Assembly (NCBI RefSeq): GCF_000820045.1
Contig: NZ_CDBJ01000027.1
Location: 216,541 to 280,540, forward strand
Source of the DNA: Aeromonas rivuli
GTDB taxonomy: Bacteria > Pseudomonadota > Gammaproteobacteria > Enterobacterales > Aeromonadaceae
Length of the DNA: 64,000 nucleotides
Reading direction: 5' to 3'
Positions 10,623 to 41,145 of the stretch are shown piece by piece. The position numbers and the translations under genes are program-made. The notes beneath the pieces are model-generated. The model was not told the origin of the DNA, did not search any database, and was given only the letters and a program-made list of their open reading frames with translations. How positions within the stretch are numbered: the stretch's first letter is position 1; the number at the start of each line of letters is the position of its first letter.

Positions 10623-12653
10623 ATGCACAACAAGAAAAGCATACTGGCCGGGTTGATAGGCTTGGCCCTGCTGGCCGGTTGTAGCCAGGGACCTGCCCAG
10701 GATCAGGCCCACTCAGGGCTGACCTTGGCCAACATGGATACCCGCATCAAGCCCGGCGACGATTTTTTCCGCTATGCCAACGGCCACTGGCTCGCCAGCG
10801 CCAAGATCCCCGATGACAGACCCGCAGATGGTGCCTTCTATACCCTGCGCGACAAGTCCCTTGCCGATGTTCGCACCCTGATTGAGGCGCTGCCCAAGGA
10901 TGCGCCCCAGGGCTCTGAAGCCCAGCAGATCCGCGATTTCTACGCCAGCTATCTGGATAAAGCTGGCCGTGATGGCAAGGGCATGAGCCCGCTTCGCCCC
11001 CTGCTCGCCGAGCTGGATCAGGTGACGGATAGCCGCACCCTGGCCCAGGCCCTGGCGCGAACCGGCAAGGTGGGCGGTGGTGCCCCCTTCGGCTTCTGGA
11101 TTGGACCCGATGCCAAGGCGCCGACCCAGTACAGCGTCAACATAGGCCAGTCCGGTCTCGGCCTGCCAGACCGGGACTACTACCTCAAGAGTGATGACGC
11201 CAGTGTGCGCCTGCGCCAGCAGTACCAGCAGCATATCGCTGGCATGCTGACCCGGGCCGGTGAAACCGATGCCGAGGCCAAAGCCAAACAGATAGTGGCG
11301 CTGGAAACCGCCATCGCCCGCATCCAGTGGGACAAGGTCGCCCTGCGTGATCGGGAGAAGAGCTACAACAAAGTTGCCAGCGGCGATCTCAGCCGCCTCG
11401 CCCCCCATATCGACTGGCAGAGCTATCTCGAGGAGGCGGGCATTGCCGCCCAGCCGACCCTGATCCTGGGCCAGCCCAGCTACCTGCAAGCCCTGGACAA
11501 GCTGATGGTGCAGACTCCCGCAGCCCAGTGGCGCGACTACCTGAAATGGCAGCTCATCAGCGACTATGCCCCCTATCTCGACAGCGACACCGACCAGGCC
11601 AACTTCGCCTTCTTCGGCACCGTCCTGAGCGGCACTCCCAAGCAGCGTGCGGCCTGGGAGCGAGCATTGGCGGTACTCGATGCCCACCTGGGCGAGGCCG
11701 TCGGCAAACGCTATGTGGCGCAATATTTCCCCCCCGAGGCCAAGGCCCGCATGGAGCAACTGGTCGAAAACCTGCGCATCGCCTACGGCCAGAGCATAGA
11801 TACCCTCGACTGGATGTCACCGGCCACCAAGGCCCAGGCCAAGGAGAAGCTCGCCAAGTTCAGACCCAAGATCGGCTACCCGGACAAGTGGCGGGACTAC
11901 AGTGCCATCCAGGTCAACGCGGATGATCTGGTCGGCAACCTGCTGCGCGCCCAGGCCTTCGAGTATCAGGAGAGTCTCTCCCGGCTCGGCACCCCGGTCG
12001 ACAAGGATCGCTGGTACATGTCGCCCCAGACGGTGAACGCCTACTACAACCCCAGCAACAACGAAATCGTGTTCCCGGCGGCCATCCTGCAGCCCCCCTT
12101 CTTCGATCTGAACGCCGATGATGCGGTCAACTATGGCGCCATCGGCGGCGTCATCGGCCACGAGATGGGTCATGGTTTCGATGATCAGGGCGCCAAGTCC
12201 GATGGGGACGGCGTGTTGCGTGACTGGTGGACGCCGACCGATCTCAAGGAGTTCAGGTTCCGCACCAGCCGGTTGGTCGCCCAATACAACCGCTTCGAAC
12301 CCATAGCGGGTCAGTTCGTCAACGGTCAGTTCACCCTGGGGGAGAACATTGGCGATCTGGGCGGCCTCACCATTGCCCACAAGGCCTACCTGTTGTCACT
12401 CGCTGGCAAGGAGGCCCCGGTGCTCGACGGCTTCACCGGCGAACAGCGCTTCTTCCTCGGCTGGGCCCAGGTGTGGAAGGGCAAATATCGCCCCGAGCTG
12501 ATGCAGATGTTGCTCAGTTCGGATCCCCACTCCCCGCCCGAATACAGGGTCAATGGCGTGGTGCCCAATATTCCCGCCTTCTACGAGGCGTTCAAGATAG
12601 ACCAGGGCGACAAGCTCTATCTGGACCCGGCCAAACGGGTCAAGATCTGGTGA
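10623..12653 (+). CDS. M13-family zinc metallopeptidase lipoprotein (PepO/neprilysin type)
   Basis: The product is 676 residues. A lipoprotein signal ends in LLAGC at residues 16-20, so the mature enzyme should be anchored to a membrane facing the periplasm. M13_N (about 40-420) is followed by the M13 catalytic domain. VIGHEMGHGFDD near residues 510-521 gives the zinc ligands HExxH, and GENIGDLGGL near 574-583 gives the third ligand glutamate. VNAYYNPSNNEIVFPA is the substrate-binding edge strand, and the YRVNG near the end is the usual C-terminal arginine region. It should cleave short peptides. The neighbouring PliI gene is separate and has its own ribosome-binding site. Confidence 0.93.
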   Translation: MHNKKSILAGLIGLALLAGCSQGPAQDQAHSGLTLANMDTRIKPGDDFFRYANGHWLASAKIPDDRPADGAFYTLRDKSLADVRTLIEALPKDAPQGSEAQQIRDFYASYLDKAGRDGKGMSPLRPLLAELDQVTDSRTLAQALARTGKVGGGAPFGFWIGPDAKAPTQYSVNIGQSGLGLPDRDYYLKSDDASVRLRQQYQQHIAGMLTRAGETDAEAKAKQIVALETAIARIQWDKVALRDREKSYNKVASGDLSRLAPHIDWQSYLEEAGIAAQPTLILGQPSYLQALDKLMVQTPAAQWRDYLKWQLISDYAPYLDSDTDQANFAFFGTVLSGTPKQRAAWERALAVLDAHLGEAVGKRYVAQYFPPEAKARMEQLVENLRIAYGQSIDTLDWMSPATKAQAKEKLAKFRPKIGYPDKWRDYSAIQVNADDLVGNLLRAQAFEYQESLSRLGTPVDKDRWYMSPQTVNAYYNPSNNEIVFPAAILQPPFFDLNADDAVNYGAIGGVIGHEMGHGFDDQGAKSDGDGVLRDWWTPTDLKEFRFRTSRLVAQYNRFEPIAGQFVNGQFTLGENIGDLGGLTIAHKAYLLSLAGKEAPVLDGFTGEQRFFLGWAQVWKGKYRPELMQMLLSSDPHSPPEYRVNGVVPNIPAFYEAFKIDQGDKLYLDPAKRVKIW

Positions 12654-12768: not shown

Positions 12769-13206
12769 ATGAAAACCTTGCTCATGACACTCGGCCTGCT
12801 CAGCCTGCCACTGACCGGCCAGGCGGCGGATGGTTTCTTCAAACAGCTGACGCTGCCCTCCGGTCAGGTGATCACAGTCAGCGAGGGGCGCGGTGAACCC
12901 GCCTCCACCGGCAGCTACGGCGTGCGCCTCTACACCGGAGCCAACCCCCAATTTCCCCTCGACCAGTTCATCGATGGCAAGATCTTGCCCCGCGATGGCA
13001 GCATCAAGGAGCTGACACTGCAGGATCTCAACGGTGACAAGCAGCCCGAACTCATCGTCATCATCGAGAGCGCTGGCAGCGGCAGCTATCTCAGTGCCAG
13101 TGCCTTCATCATCGATCCCCAGCAGGGGCTCGACAGCTTCAACCACGTGGAGGGGCTGGCGCCAAACGATGATGTGATCCAGGCACTCAAGACCCCTAGG
13201 GATTAA
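12769..13206 (+). CDS. pliI: periplasmic inhibitor of i-type lysozyme (PliI family)
   Basis: The 145-residue precursor has a signal peptide ending in TGQA at about residue 19. The mature beta-rich domain carries SAGSGSYLSASAF near residues 103-115. The SGSY tetrad is the loop that known PliI proteins insert into the active-site cleft of invertebrate-type lysozyme. The protein should protect periplasmic peptidoglycan from host or prey lysozyme. The start at 12769 follows AAGGG and gives a clean signal peptide. The assignment rests on motif, size and export signal, all seen here. The link to Aeromonas PliI is established family knowledge. Confidence 0.8.
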   Translation: MKTLLMTLGLLSLPLTGQAADGFFKQLTLPSGQVITVSEGRGEPASTGSYGVRLYTGANPQFPLDQFIDGKILPRDGSIKELTLQDLNGDKQPELIVIIESAGSGSYLSASAFIIDPQQGLDSFNHVEGLAPNDDVIQALKTPRD

Positions 13207-13220
13207 TGGACAGTGAAGCC

Positions 13221-13243
13221 GACAGCCTGCCATGCAGGCTGTC
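13221..13243 (+). terminator. hairpin after the PliI gene
   Basis: GACAGCCTGC pairs perfectly with GCAGGCTGTC around a CAT loop, 15 bases past the stop codon. The following T content is moderate (GCTTTGCTT). Confidence 0.55.
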
Positions 13244-13320
13244 GCTTTGCTTGCGACAGACAGTGAGATGCGCTGTTCGCCACACTCATCACCAGGGGGT
13301 CACGCCCTCTGGTTCGCCGA

Positions 13321-13350
13321 TGGACGCTTGTTTTTTTCTGTGCTTATAAT
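13321..13350 (+). promoter_or_regulatory. promoter of the ABC-F leader region
   Basis: A perfect TATAAT lies at 13345-13350. TGGACG, four of six matches to the -35 consensus, lies 18 bp upstream. Transcription would start near 13357, leaving a 33-base lead to the small ORF at 13390 and about 230 bases to the ABC-F start. Confidence 0.6.
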
Positions 13351-13389
13351 CGCCTCACTGTGCCATGACAAAACACAAGGAGGTAAAAA

Positions 13390-13476
13390 ATGGTAATCCC
13401 AACGTGTCCGATGTTCTCGGCTCGTCTGTTCGACACTTTCCCCAGCTCTTGCCTGCATAAGATCGCGCTGCGATAG
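13390..13476 (+). CDS. 28-codon leader peptide upstream of the ABC-F gene
   Basis: The ORF encodes MVIPTCPMFSARLFDT followed by FPSSCLHKIALR, 28 residues ending in TAG. AAGGAGG sits 6 bases before its ATG. That is a far better ribosome-binding site than the one before the ABC-F gene (GAGAG), and a TATAAT promoter lies just upstream. Its codons can form a CCGA/TCGG hairpin (13408-13420), and its stop codon overlaps an ATCGC/GCGAT hairpin (13462-13474). No amino acid is repeated as in biosynthetic attenuators, so stalling by a ribosome-targeting drug or a slowed ribosome is a better guess. It is too short for standard gene callers; coding is supported by signals, not by homology. Confidence 0.6.
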   Translation: MVIPTCPMFSARLFDTFPSSCLHKIALR

Positions 13477-13508
13477 CGGGTTCGAGCAAAGCCGACTCCC
13501 TTCTTGAC

Positions 13509-13572
13509 CGAGACCTTTCTCGACCATTGTCGCCAGCGCTCCTGATGACAGGGATCTCCGATCCCGCATTTT
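13509..13572 (+). promoter_or_regulatory. possible transcription attenuator before the ABC-F gene
   Basis: CGAGA/TCTCG with a CCTT loop (13509-13522) is followed by GGGATC-TCC-GATCCC (13551-13565), GCA and TTTT (13569-13572). The last hairpin ends 20 bases before the ABC-F start, so it could end transcription or mask the weak ribosome-binding site. Leader bases 13417-13424 can pair with either CGAGC at 13483 or GCCGA at 13491, which offers alternative folds. Confidence 0.4.
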
Positions 13573-13585
13573 AGAGAGCAACAGC

Positions 13586-15310
13586 ATGACAACATTGATG
13601 AGTACCCACTCCCTGCAGATGAGCGCAGGTCACCTTCCCCTGTTCGACAATATCGACCTCAGCATCCAGAGCGGTGACCGCATCGGCCTCATCGGCGCCA
13701 ACGGCAGCGGCAAGAGCACCCTGCTCGCCCTGCTGGCTGGCCAGATCCAGCCCCATGATGGACGCGTGCAACAGGCCGCCCCCTGCCGCTGCGAGTTTGT
13801 GGCGCAGCATTTACCCACTGCGTTGCAAGGGCTCAGCACCCGCGCCGTGCTGGAGCAAGCCGTGGCAGGGGATCCCGCCCTCGGCTGGCAGGTGGACAAG
13901 ATGCTCGATGAGCTGCAACTCGCCGAGCAGGCCGACTTGCCGGTCACTACCCTGAGCGGCGGCCAGCACAGCCGCCTGCAGATAGGGCGCGCCCTGCTGC
14001 GCCAACCCAATCTGCTGCTGCTCGATGAGCCAAGCAACCACCTGGACTTGCCCGCCCTGCTCTGGCTGGAGCGCTTCTTGTCGAGCTGGCGCGGCGCCTT
14101 CGTGCTGGTCTCCCACGATGGCCGCCTGCTAGATCGGGTGACCCAGCACACTCTGATCCTGCGGGACAGGCGCATCTACCGCTTCGCCCAGCCTTGCAGC
14201 CAGGCCAGGGCGGCGCTGGTGGAAGAGGACGACAATGCTCGCCTGCGCCGGATGGATGAACAAAAAGAGATAGACCGCCTGAGTGCCAGCAGCAAACGCC
14301 TCACCATCTGGGGGCGGGAACATGACAGCGAGAAGCTGATACGCCAGGCCAAGTCCATGGAGAAACGCATCGTGAAGCTGCAGGAGGAGCAGAGCCTGGT
14401 CGGCGCCGGCGCCCCCTGGCGACTCGAACTGCACGGACTGGGGCTGCCCGCCGATGCCCTGTTGCGGCTGGAAGCCCTCGACGTGCGCCCGGCGCCACAG
14501 TTGCCGCCCCTGCTGCGCGCCGAGGATCTCTGGTTGAAATCCGGTGACAGGGTCGCCCTGCTCGGTGCCAATGGCACGGGGAAATCCTCCCTGCTGCGCC
14601 AGTGCTGGGCCGAGATAGGTGAACAGCGCCAGGCAGAGGGCTGGTACCGCCACCCCGCAGCCAGCATCGCCTACTACGATCAATCCCTGCAGCAGCTCGA
14701 TGACGGGGCCACCCTGAGCGACGCCCTCTACGCCCTGGCGCCGCGACCGGCGGTAACCCTGCGCCAGGCCCTGATCCGGGCAGGCTTCCCCTACACCCGT
14801 CACGGCCAGCGGGTCTTGAGCCTGAGTGGTGGCGAGCGGGCCAGACTGCTGTTCCTCGCCCTCTCCCTGGCGAGTCACCACCTGCTCTGGCTCGATGAAC
14901 CCACCAACCATCTGGATCTGGAGGGCAAGGAGGAGCTGGCCGAGGCACTGACCGGCTTTGCCGGTGGCGTCTTGCTGGTCTCCCACGACCGGGATCTGAT
15001 CGAGCGCAGTTGCAACCGCTTCTGGGTGATCAAGGGGGGACGCATTGTCGAGGCCCACAGTGCCGAGCGAGCCTATGCCGAGCTGCTCGGCCATGAACTG
15101 GCAGGCCCATCAAGCAGTCCGATCCCCACGGCCCTCTCTCAGCCCCAGGCCACGGCAGAGGAGGATGACGAGGCCATGCTGGCACGCTGGTACGAACTGG
15201 ACAGCTTGCTGGCGGCCGATCTCGCCCGCAAGCCCAGGCATCAGACCCCGCGGCTGCAACAGCACTGGCGCGACGAGCTATCCCTGCTCACCGAGCGGCT
15301 TGGCCTCTGA
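13586..15310 (+). CDS. ABC-F family ATPase (ribosome-associated)
   Basis: The 574-residue protein has two ABC domains and no membrane segment. Domain 1 has Walker A GANGSGKST (about 37-45), signature LSGGQHSRLQIG (about 130), Walker B LLLLDEPSNHLDLPALLWLE and the H-switch SHDGR. A charged linker (about 210-270) replaces the transmembrane domain; in ABC-F proteins it reaches towards the peptidyl-transferase centre. Domain 2 has GANGTGKSS, LSGGERARLLF and LLWLDEPTNHLDLEGKEEL. Family members rescue stalled ribosomes or protect them from antibiotics. I cannot assign a subfamily. The upstream leader ORF and hairpins suggest translation-sensitive induction, as known for several antibiotic-resistance ABC-F genes. 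Confidence 0.88.
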   Translation: MTTLMSTHSLQMSAGHLPLFDNIDLSIQSGDRIGLIGANGSGKSTLLALLAGQIQPHDGRVQQAAPCRCEFVAQHLPTALQGLSTRAVLEQAVAGDPALGWQVDKMLDELQLAEQADLPVTTLSGGQHSRLQIGRALLRQPNLLLLDEPSNHLDLPALLWLERFLSSWRGAFVLVSHDGRLLDRVTQHTLILRDRRIYRFAQPCSQARAALVEEDDNARLRRMDEQKEIDRLSASSKRLTIWGREHDSEKLIRQAKSMEKRIVKLQEEQSLVGAGAPWRLELHGLGLPADALLRLEALDVRPAPQLPPLLRAEDLWLKSGDRVALLGANGTGKSSLLRQCWAEIGEQRQAEGWYRHPAASIAYYDQSLQQLDDGATLSDALYALAPRPAVTLRQALIRAGFPYTRHGQRVLSLSGGERARLLFLALSLASHHLLWLDEPTNHLDLEGKEELAEALTGFAGGVLLVSHDRDLIERSCNRFWVIKGGRIVEAHSAERAYAELLGHELAGPSSSPIPTALSQPQATAEEDDEAMLARWYELDSLLAADLARKPRHQTPRLQQHWRDELSLLTERLGL

Positions 15311-15332
15311 GCGCGGCCGCCAATCATGATGA

Positions 15333-15357
15333 CAAAGCCCCGCATTGCGGGGCTTTG
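15333..15357. terminator. bidirectional terminator between ABC-F and yjeH
   Basis: CAAAGCCCCGC pairs perfectly with GCGGGGCTTTG around an ATT loop, between two convergent genes. The AAA and TTT at the stem base give partial U-runs on both sides. Confidence 0.65.
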
Positions 15358-15388
15358 ACTGGGTCGCGTCGGCGCCTTGTGACAGCGG

Positions 15389-16678
15389 TTACTCGATAAC
15401 GGAGCAGCTGCCCCCCTCGGCCGTGCCCTGGTGCTGACGACACCTGCGCCGCCACAGGGCGAAGAGCCCATAACCCAGGGTCAGCAGCAGGGCATAGATC
15501 CCCTCGGCGGCCAGGGCGACCATGACGGCCGCACAGAGCAGGGCACTCATACCCGCCAACCACTTGCCGCCGCCTGCCAACAGGCGCCAGCCCGCCGCCA
15601 TGCAGAGCAGATAGACCAGTACAAAGTTGCCGTTGGCGTAGCGGATCAGGGTATCGAGGGGCAGCCGCCACCAGAGGATCAGGGTGATGGAGGCGACACA
15701 GATACCGAGCACCAGACAGAGCGCTCGCACCGGAGCCCCCCGCGTCGACAGGGTTGCCAGGGAAGCAGGCAGCTTGCCCTCACGCGCCATGCTCCAGATG
15801 AGCCGTGCAAACCCCTGTAGATAGATGTTGATGCTGGCAAAGCAGGAGAGATAGCCGAGGATCGCCACCAGCCACTTGGCGGTCGGCCCGAACAAGAGCG
15901 CCAGCAGGGTAGGAATAGCGGTGGCATTGGTCGCCTCGTCGCCATAGAGGCCGTACTTGAGCACGACCAGGGAGTGGATCCCGTAGATGAGCCCCGCCAG
16001 CAGCACGCCACCAAGCAGGGCAAGGGGATAGTCGCGCCCCGGGTTTTTGAACTCCTCCCCCATGTGGGCGAAGGCTTCCAGACCGACGAAGCACCAGAAC
16101 ATCACCGCCAGCGCCGTGGCCATGGCGGGCCATTCAGCTGCCGTCGGCAGAGGCTGAGCGGCATCACGCCAGCCAATCTCGCCCTTGAGGGCGATAAGCA
16201 GGGTCAGCCCGACGATGGCCAGGGCAATGAGCAGTTGCAGATTACCCGAGGAGCGTGCGCCGCGCAGGCCGAGCAGCAAGACGCCGAGCAGGGTCAACAG
16301 CTGTATGGCCCACAGGGTCAGCTCACCAAGTTCGAACAGGGCATGCCAGAATCCCGCCGCTATGGTGAGGGCCGCGGGCAATCCCACCGGCAGCACCGCC
16401 AGAAACAGGAAGGCGGAGTAACGCTCTGCGCCGGCTCCAAAGGCCTTGCCGATAAGATGGGGCGCCCCGCCCGCATGGGGATAGCGGCGCCCGAGCCGGG
16501 CAAAGGTAAAGGCGATGGGCAGCACCAGCACGATGAGCAGCCCCCAGGCCCAGAGGGAGGCTCCCCCCGCCAGGGAGGCCGCGGCGGCAGGTACCACGAA
16601 AATCCCGGTACCAAGCAAGGAGGTCGCCAGCAACCCCATCCCCTGCCACAGTCCCAGATCCTTCTTTAAGCTCGACAT
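15389..16678 (-). CDS. yjeH: APC-family amino-acid exporter, YjeH type
   Basis: The 429-residue inner-membrane transporter resembles E. coli YjeH, which exports methionine and branched-chain amino acids. The N-terminal LGLWQGMGLLATSLLGTGIF, the MFWCFVGLEAFAHMGEEFKNPGRDYP segment in the middle, and the IRYANGNFVLVYLLCMAAGW region all fit. About 12 membrane segments are visible. The start MSSLKKDLG at 16678 matches the family; longer readings would invade the divergent regulator promoter. An AsnC/Lrp-type regulator is divergent and a 25-bp inverted repeat lies between them, so amino-acid-responsive control is likely. Confidence 0.85.
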   Translation of the reverse strand: MSSLKKDLGLWQGMGLLATSLLGTGIFVVPAAAASLAGGASLWAWGLLIVLVLPIAFTFARLGRRYPHAGGAPHLIGKAFGAGAERYSAFLFLAVLPVGLPAALTIAAGFWHALFELGELTLWAIQLLTLLGVLLLGLRGARSSGNLQLLIALAIVGLTLLIALKGEIGWRDAAQPLPTAAEWPAMATALAVMFWCFVGLEAFAHMGEEFKNPGRDYPLALLGGVLLAGLIYGIHSLVVLKYGLYGDEATNATAIPTLLALLFGPTAKWLVAILGYLSCFASINIYLQGFARLIWSMAREGKLPASLATLSTRGAPVRALCLVLGICVASITLILWWRLPLDTLIRYANGNFVLVYLLCMAAGWRLLAGGGKWLAGMSALLCAAVMVALAAEGIYALLLTLGYGLFALWRRRCRQHQGTAEGGSCSVIE

Positions 16679-40989: not shown

Positions 40990-41145
40990 TTTATACCTCT
41001 GTATTGGGGTTAGGCCTCCACACATCCCATGTAACCGACCCCAAAGGGGCACCCCGGTACAGGTATCGATGTGTGTGTGTTATTGATTAGGGTGATGAAA
41101 CCGGGACAAGTAGTTCCGGTTCCGGCGCGCTTTATACCATAAGTT
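40990..41145 (-). ncRNA. rpsB 5' leader (S2 autoregulatory element, t44-type)
   Basis: On the minus strand a GGGGT...ACCCC stem (41006-41042) encloses GGATGTGTGGAGGCC, and an adjacent CCCC-TTT-GGGG hairpin precedes it. A TATAAA followed by GCGCGCC (about 41136-41124) resembles a stringent-control promoter. The equivalent region in other gammaproteobacteria is the rpsB leader bound by S2. Exact ends and homology are inferred. Confidence 0.5.

Follow-up and report, generated by a model that had tools for sequence, protein, structure and literature searches.

The window analysed here, a 64,000-nucleotide stretch of the Aeromonas rivuli genome (assembly GCF_000820045.1, contig NZ_CDBJ01000027.1, positions 216,541 to 280,540), holds the gene of an ABC-F ATPase preceded by a 28-codon open reading frame (ORF) and 109 further bases, which together, as judged by sequence comparison, form a conserved RNA element in which the ribosome-binding site (RBS) of the ABC-F gene has a complement within the leader ORF, named segment A. 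This leader probably functions as a translational attenuator that acts on the ABC-F RBS and is operated by the ribosome engaged on the leader ORF, with the pairing supported by covariation and the effect of the ribosome by simulation. Two hallmarks of a translational attenuator were found, namely a conserved ORF with a Shine-Dalgarno (SD) sequence upstream of the gene (69 of 70 loci) and, from covariation and simulation, an RBS predicted to be sequestered by a pairing that a ribosome on the leader would break. The 109 bases between the leader ORF and the ABC-F gene are structured RNA, and the ABC-F RBS itself is weak (GAGAG). The parts of the locus are the following, in positions of the window:

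13321-13350, +, promoter: -35 TGGACG (13321-13326), 18-nt spacer, -10 TATAAT (13345-13350); 10 of 12 matches
13377-13383, +, leader SD AAGGAGG, invariant in 23 of 23 Aeromonas
13390-13476, +, leader ORF of 28 codons, MVIPTCPMFSARLFDTFPSSCLHKIALR, stop TAG; 26-28-codon counterparts in relatives
13423-13434, +, leader codons 12-15, residues R-L-F-D in the window, positions -17 to -14 counted back from the final sense codon; motif of the family [RH]x[FY][GS]; predicted neighbourhood of the stall
13445-13452, +, segment A, GCTCTTGC, inside the leader ORF; partner either B or the ABC-F RBS
13462-13474, +, stop hairpin ATCGC-GCT-GCGAT, extending over the final leader codons into the first base of the stop; 96.1% of alignment cells paired; compensatory change in L058
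13465-13476, +, segment F, the end of the leader ORF including the stop; alternative partner of G; 96.5% of cells paired
13480-13487, +, segment B, GTTCGAGC, directly 3' of the leader stop; partner of A; 86.7% of cells paired; double changes in 5 of 8 pairs
13509-13522, +, hairpin C, CGAGA-CCTT-TCTCG; 13 of the 16 columns of 13508-13523 invariant in Aeromonas
13527-13539, +, segment G, TTGTCGCCAGCGC; partner of F
13551-13565, +, hairpin E, GGGATC-TCC-GATCCC; stem of at least 4 pairs in 68 of 68 leaders, with no conserved U-run behind it
13574-13585, +, ABC-F RBS (D) with GAGAGC core, complement of A; 11 of 12 columns invariant in Aeromonas
13586-15310, +, ABC-F ATPase of 574 amino acids, with a helical hairpin (204-245/249-268) between its two ABC domains

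All the signals on which a sequence-only reading of this DNA had relied (TATAAT, AAGGAGG, the 28-codon ORF, a hairpin followed by TTTT and a weak ABC-F RBS) lie where that reading had placed them. Its broader proposal, a leader ORF that looks translated, with alternative RNA folds and coupled to the ABC-F gene, is supported by the relatives of the locus, with the ORF intact in 69 of 70.

Conservation of the leader ahead of ABC-F genes

Of 37 genomes of the genus, 23 carry the leader DNA upstream of the gene, and the ABC-F protein is present in the same 23. The 28-codon ORF is intact in each of these leaders, with the consensus MVIQACPMFSARLFGTFxCSCLHTIALR, and the -10 box reads TATAAT in 21 and TATACT in the other 2. 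Mean pairwise identity among the 23 is 38.5% upstream of the promoter versus 100% in the SD and 92.3% in codons 1-18; it reaches 97.8% from A to the stop, 98-99% in B, hairpin C and G, and 99.3% in the RBS, and is 85.9% in the TTTT stretch.

Of the 295 genomes of the order, 32 encode relatives of the ABC-F protein, taken at E 1e-110 or better, and such relatives are also encoded in Chromobacterium, Burkholderia, Paraburkholderia and Pseudogulbenkiania; further records come, among others, from Klebsiella pneumoniae, Morganella, Proteus, Pantoea, Rahnella, Vibrio and Photobacterium. Searches of the class (1/369) and of the phylum (6/299) gave no additional ABC-F loci. The close loci examined number 70 (23 from Aeromonas, 19 from the search of the order, 19 betaproteobacterial, 8 of 40 "plasmid" records, and L142), and an intact leader ORF of 26-28 codons is found in 69 of them, across Gamma- and Betaproteobacteria. 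Frame-breaking changes in close relatives, which the sequence-only reading had named as a refutation of its proposal, are confined to one of the 70 loci, L102 (Pseudomonas silvicola CP093281.1), where the leader and the ABC-F frames are both interrupted. The 3' RNA core of L102 still scores 109.7 bits despite the broken frames, a picture of joint decay of leader and gene. Of 68 tabulated leaders, 67 have AAGGAGG as their SD and the remaining one has AAGGAGA, and the distance from the leader stop to the ABC-F start ranges from 97 to 138 bases. In four records with genes listed around the ABC-F gene, the gene tables, stated to be incomplete, name no gene at the leader.

More distant ABC-F relatives (G308, which is also L141, with 39% identity, as well as L097 and L098) have no such leader upstream. 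Since G308 belongs to the same order, it offers a natural outgroup for timing the origin of the switch. As a separate observation, a Morganella morganii plasmid, p48659_1 (L100; 50,644 bp), carries the ABC-F gene and its leader beside two acetyltransferase genes, ada and alkB; its size of 50 kb indicates that the unit can reside on a small replicon.

A covariance model of the element, R1, built from 46 non-redundant core sequences, matches 31 of the 295 genomes of the order, once in each, and all 31 matches adjoin the ABC-F gene by coordinates. The training alignment holds 24 of the matches, and 7 lie outside it, including the divergent 26-codon leader of G127 (E 1.2e-14). The only one of the 32 ABC-F carriers without an R1 match is G308, and within the genus R1 picks out exactly those 23 of 37 genomes that hold the leader and the ABC-F gene. 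Because R1 extends over the RBS into the first 9 bases of the ABC-F gene, and the stricter search filters can lose weak matches, leaders ahead of other genes may exist. Rfam, searched at its gathering threshold, gave no match to the leader in the window or in 7 loci.

Mutually exclusive RNA pairings

The conserved segments can form two mutually exclusive sets of pairings: a local A:B helix that encloses the stop hairpin, versus a long-range A:D helix accompanied by F:G. For A:B with the stop hairpin, 90.3% of 598 cells are paired, compared with 26-42% in slid versions; double changes affect 7 of 13 pairs, a value that 0 of 500 shuffles reach, and the number of further pair types is matched by 3 of 500, fractions that are not probabilities, here or below, because the leader sequences are related by descent. 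For F:G, 96.5% of cells are paired compared with 22-65% in slid versions, and its covariation score is reached by 0 of 500 shuffles.

The register of A:D varies by lineage, and the longest uninterrupted complement was measured instead. This run amounts to at least 6 pairs in 41 of 46 leaders, a length reached by 18% of shuffled RBS windows and by 2.3% of the 1056 combinations in which A was matched with the RBS of the other lineage group. The two partners are exchanged together between lineages, with CTCTTG/CAAGAG in Aeromonas and most betaproteobacterial leaders versus CTCAAG/CTTGAG in most other gammaproteobacterial ones, and Rahnella, with CTCAGG/CCTGAG, obeys the same rule of complementarity. 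An RNAalifold consensus computed on a MAFFT alignment gives a weak partial structure (-9.2 kcal/mol), because the registers differ between lineages, and the named helices were counted instead.

In equilibrium folding of the free leader, A:D is favoured over A:B in all three group means, with L001, L042 and the window species as cases where it is not. A scheme in which A:B would be the default on-state by forming first was dropped on account of this preference, and the on-state was reassigned to a ribosome that sits over A; an early stall may also reach the on-state by a kinetic route through A:B.

The alternative pairing put forward in the sequence-only reading (13417-13424 with 13483-13495) is real to the extent that TCGGCT/AGCCGA is present and forms part of the minimum free energy (MFE) fold of the window leader. 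It is not the conserved switch: by eye, the pairing is found only in Aeromonas and, partly, in Chromobacterium. As a switch it was rejected for being limited to these lineages, the conserved one being A with either B or the ABC-F RBS.

A further pairing appears in the folds of several Aeromonas and betaproteobacterial leaders when the ribosome is on the leader stop, where G pairs with the first ABC-F codons (13527-13531 with 13588-13592, UUGUC/GACAA). This contact is a possible second lock on the gene.

Predicted effect of a ribosome on the leader

The influence of a ribosome was simulated in 67 leaders by masking 30 bases for each leader codon and computing the cost of opening the ABC-F RBS, a treatment that represents one static ribosome and no kinetics. 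Without a ribosome, the mean opening cost is 10.6 kcal/mol in Aeromonas, 7.2 in the other gammaproteobacteria and 10.6 in the betaproteobacteria. In the group means, the cost first drops when the P-site is at codon -14, and it reaches its lowest values in Aeromonas at -11/-10 (6.2 kcal/mol), in the other gammaproteobacteria at -9 (4.4, remaining low to about -5) and in the betaproteobacteria at -11 (8.0). Once the P-site has reached the final sense codon, the modelled cost is 11.0, 8.4 and 10.7 kcal/mol, respectively. A drop of more than 1.5 kcal/mol within -14 to -9 is obtained for 56 of 67 leaders versus 13 of 68 codon-shuffled controls, made from 34 of the 67 leaders at 5 of the 6 ribosome positions. 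The minimum falls within -14 to -4 in 54 of 67 leaders overall and in 22 of the 25 gammaproteobacterial leaders from outside Aeromonas, whose low stretch is broader. The simulation thus predicts that a stall in the middle of the leader would induce the ABC-F gene, and that completion of the leader would repress it.

The leader peptide

Codon-level conservation of the peptide, which the sequence-only reading had suggested examining, holds within Aeromonas and fades outside it. Codons 2-18 of the Aeromonas leaders show a synonymous fraction of 0.68 versus 0.28 expected, a coding-like evolution. In the enterobacterial, Vibrio-type and betaproteobacterial groups, this fraction is 0.27-0.37 versus 0.25-0.30 expected (one 28-codon enterobacterial leader, L056, stood outside the groups and was left out), with no clear purifying selection on the whole peptide. 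In the last ten enterobacterial codons, synonymous changes are rarer than expected (0.08 versus 0.33), as a constraint on the RNA would give. Outside Aeromonas, it is a short motif and the RNA that appear from these comparisons to be conserved, rather than the whole peptide.

When 61 unique leaders are aligned at their stops, R or H occupies -17 in 56, F or Y occupies -15 in 53, and G or S occupies -14 in 58; all 61 have S at -9, and 60 have L at -2 and R at -1. The motif, segment A and the last codons keep a gapless register from the stop, and the differences in length are N-terminal. Each of the three positions of [RH]x[FY][GS] is kept in 13 of 15 clade representatives, with varied codons. 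The codons for R/H, F/Y and G/S have two bases in common, so the motif may have a cause in the RNA.

Proposed mechanism and its alternatives

From the pairings and the simulation, we infer a scheme in which the leader ORF would be translated and the transcript would have an off-state and an on-state. Where no ribosome is stalled, the transcript would settle into A:D and F:G, hiding the start of the ABC-F gene. Ribosomes that complete the leader would leave the gene off, and one standing on the stop codon would keep the RBS closed. If a ribosome were held some 9-14 codons ahead of the stop, close to [RH]x[FY][GS], it would cover A while F:G can still form, so that the ABC-F RBS would be freed. 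The agent that causes the stall would likely be a ribosome-targeting drug or a similar translation stress, and the ABC-F protein, which by its distribution fits the subfamily PAF1 (see below), would then rescue or protect ribosomes.

Several observations weigh against this model. Part of them concern the window species itself, which has D at -14, the position of G/S; its A:D run is of just 6 pairs, with -8.9 kcal/mol compared with -14.2 kcal/mol in nine other Aeromonas; its MFE fold shows A:B; and the folding energy of its leader is unremarkable (z -1.58, with 11 of 200 shuffles folding as well), which is a weak point. Others concern the pairings at large. Five of the 46 leaders (L051, L077, L088, L103 and L105) have no 6-pair run of A:D, and the support for F:G is mixed, as its number of double-change pairs is matched by 26 of 500 shuffles and its further pair types by 157 of 500. 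The F:G helix is, on these comparisons, well formed yet less strongly tested than A:B with the stop hairpin. In the simulation, the drop is no larger than 1.5 kcal/mol for 11 of 67 leaders, the minimum lies at -14 to -9 in just 40 of 67 (8 of 25 in the gammaproteobacteria outside Aeromonas), the RBS at best is still 4-8 kcal/mol from open, and a ribosome at the start of the leader, the usual place of a halt caused by lincosamide-type drugs, barely alters the modelled RBS. The near-neutral evolution of the N-terminal part of the peptide also makes peptide-specific stalling doubtful outside Aeromonas.

The sequence-only reading had proposed that the hairpin with TTTT at 13551-13572 (TTTT at 13569-13572) could help to couple ABC-F expression to ribosome stalling, with short transcripts ending near 13572; its role as an attenuator terminator is not supported. 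In such a scheme of transcription attenuation, the terminator formed by hairpin E and the T-run would be prevented by a stalled leader ribosome, as in msrD, vmlR and cplR. The published Gram-positive ABC-F leaders compared here do use terminators, and all 68 leaders (68 of 68) keep a stem where hairpin E lies. What is kept, however, is the hairpin and not the U-run: the longest T-run in the last 30 bases is of 4 in 4 of 23 Aeromonas leaders and of 2 or fewer in 19 of 19 betaproteobacterial ones, and the runs of 4 or 5 in 8 of 26 other gammaproteobacterial leaders are sited in the loop of hairpin E rather than 3' of its stem. The terminator scan did not flag the hairpin at 13551-13572, and a G+C hairpin followed by a U-run ahead of the gene, the mark of an intrinsic terminator, was not found as a conserved feature. 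The intrinsic terminator was rejected on these two grounds, and transcription attenuation is judged improbable; the lack of conservation of the TTTT behind the last hairpin looks like translational attenuation instead. An arrest at the stop codon, in which the conserved C-terminal IALR-stop would halt termination in the presence of a drug and switch the ABC-F gene on, as in MsrDL, would account for the 60 of 61 unique leaders that retain L at -2 and R at -1, and Morganella and Proteus retain the Arg through another codon. Nevertheless, in L058 the change of R to Q is accompanied by a change on the opposite strand of the hairpin that preserves the pairing, so the RNA can explain the codon, and the modelled RBS is closed with a ribosome at the end of the leader; such an arrest is considered quite unlikely.

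The leader might also be a passive gauge of ribosome movement, in which the identity of the peptide is irrelevant, any slowing over A opens the RBS, and what is sensed is translation stress in general, not a single class of drug. The near-neutral amino-acid change outside Aeromonas and the strong, nearly invariant SD are in keeping with it, and so is toiL of E. coli, which, according to the accessible text, senses at least five drug classes (PMC12121999). The fixed distance of [RH]x[FY][GS] to the stop in 13 of 15 clades and the strong conservation of the Aeromonas peptide (0.68 versus 0.28) speak against it, and this alternative is regarded as rather unlikely. A last alternative is that the product of the leader ORF is a small protein with a function, and the RNA pairing incidental. 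It would fit the conservation of the peptide within Aeromonas, but the N-terminal part diverges between families while the pairing covaries, which makes this explanation very improbable. The preferred model remains that of a translational attenuator whose RBS would be opened by a ribosome held in the middle of the leader.

The ABC-F protein and its family

By the curated NCBIfam cut-offs, the ABC-F protein belongs to none of the four housekeeping types of E. coli. It scores 196.8 against a cut-off of 599 for the EttA model (NF008775), 277.8 against 900 for Uup, 206.2 against 762 for NF011646 and 191.7 against 917 for NF007921, the last two presumably being YbiT and YheS. The best-scoring family is NF000355, the NCBIfam model for ribosomal protection-like ABC-F proteins, with 305.4 bits, below its cut-off of 380. 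An AlphaFold2 model (mean pLDDT 85.3) shows two ABC domains joined by a long helical hairpin linker, in which W242, G243, D247, E249, L251 and R253 are invariant across 27 aligned sequences. The best matches among solved structures are human ABCF1, followed by VgaL, VmlR2, VgaA and EttA, which are tied, so that the structural comparison does not separate antibiotic-resistance from housekeeping ABC-F proteins.

An ABC-F subfamily named PAF1 has been described from Proteobacteria including Vibrio and Klebsiella, not Escherichia, with variable presence within genera, and because of this variability it was listed among predicted novel resistance ABC-F proteins "worthy of investigation", as stated in the accessible text (Murina et al. 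2019, PMC6723617). The same distribution was observed here, with carriers in Vibrio and Klebsiella, in 23 of 37 genomes of the genus and in 32 of 295 of the order, and blastn of the Klebsiella copy against an E. coli collection of 5,426 genomes gave no match. The ABC-F protein thus fits PAF1 by its distribution, which is not a formal definition of the subfamily.

A gene of K. pneumoniae NTUH-K2044, KP1_RS24555, was considered as a copy of this ABC-F gene. In strain 176, half a chromosome separates the ABC-F gene from the ilv-rho region, which by gene order should be near the ATP synthase genes, while KP1_RS24555 is about 224 genes from an ATP synthase gene by tag numbers; its position argues against the identity, and it was not used as evidence. 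In the accessible part of its source, KP1_RS24555 is 99% similar to an EttA entry and is the most significantly upregulated gene under bac7, with a log2 change of +6.8 (PMC12677791).

Relation to known attenuators and significance

In translational attenuation of the ermC type, a stalled leader ribosome frees the RBS of a resistance gene. The principle of freeing an RBS is the same as proposed here, whereas the type of gene, the peptide and the RNA are all different. In kind, the leader is a probable translational attenuator, and it departs from the known ones in architecture, host range and gene family.

The closest parallels in gene type are the leaders of CplR, VmlR, VmlR2 and LsaA, which, as far as the accessible text of the papers goes, also have an upstream ORF (uORF) ahead of an ABC-F resistance gene, alternative folds, and translational attenuation as one layer of control (PMC10201436, PMC9226507). 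Their uORF consensuses, however, comprise 3-4 residues (MR[I/M], MIN, MK[L/Q] and MAGN) in the same text, compared with 26-28 codons here. CplR and VmlR, moreover, are described there as using intrinsic terminators in Gram-positive hosts, while the present leader has no conserved terminator, occurs in Gram-negative hosts and carries its anti-RBS within the ORF, with a constant spacing to the stop. MsrDL likewise is a leader peptide ahead of an ABC-F gene, msrD, but it has 6 residues (MYLIFM), undergoes arrest at the stop codon with macrolides and works with a Rho-independent terminator, according to the available part of that report (PMC10314930). Among Gram-negative systems, toiL-topAI of E. 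coli is, in the accessible text, similar in having a uORF and an RBS occlusion that is relieved by stalled ribosomes, although it controls a toxin-antitoxin pair and does so with Rho-dependent termination (PMC12121999), and a Gram-negative uORF attenuator of a DUF1127 gene appears in the part available of another study (PMC12218461). The main text of the PAF1 paper, as far as accessible, contains the word "leader" 0 times and does not describe regulation (PMC6723617). A literature search, with most subscription papers and all bioRxiv preprints outside its reach, found nothing on a leader ahead of a proteobacterial ABC-F gene in the text that it covered.

It is tentatively suggested, as somewhat less than an even prospect, that one anciently shared drug-sensing attenuator with a new arrest motif, [RH]x[FY][GS], controls PAF1 throughout, as a Gram-negative family of ABC-F resistance proteins found in Aeromonas, in Klebsiella and further Enterobacterales, and in Vibrio, Chromobacterium and Burkholderia. 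That PAF1 is a resistance factor was predicted in 2019, and a conserved leader operated by ribosomes would be independent evidence that this ABC-F protein answers to translation stress. The leader would also supply an inducible switch for testing PAF1, and would explain why assays without induction could miss its effect. If such a shared drug-sensing attenuator exists, the carriers would hold an inducible system of ribosome protection that is silent, and hence unseen, in drug-free tests. A long, covarying leader with two exclusive folds is well suited to toeprinting and structure probing in E. coli K-12.

Further features of the locus

Promoter and leader ahead of the ABC-F gene look like the start of a separate transcription unit. 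A promoter scan of 12900-15700 found 1 site versus 0.2 expected in shuffles, and an additional feature lies between the leader and the gene upstream:

13220-13244, +, terminator-like hairpin 3' of pliI, separating the upstream gene from the leader transcript

The genes further upstream encode an M13 (PepO-like) peptidase (10623-12653) and a PliI-like periplasmic lysozyme inhibitor (12769-13206), for which no functional link to the ABC-F gene was seen. A T-loop resembling that of a tRNA in GCGGGTTCGAGC was considered, and no tRNA was found there. The sole Rfam match of the window at the gathering threshold is a t44 RNA at 41009-41097 on the reverse strand (80.2 bits), a known, ordinary leader element near rpsB.

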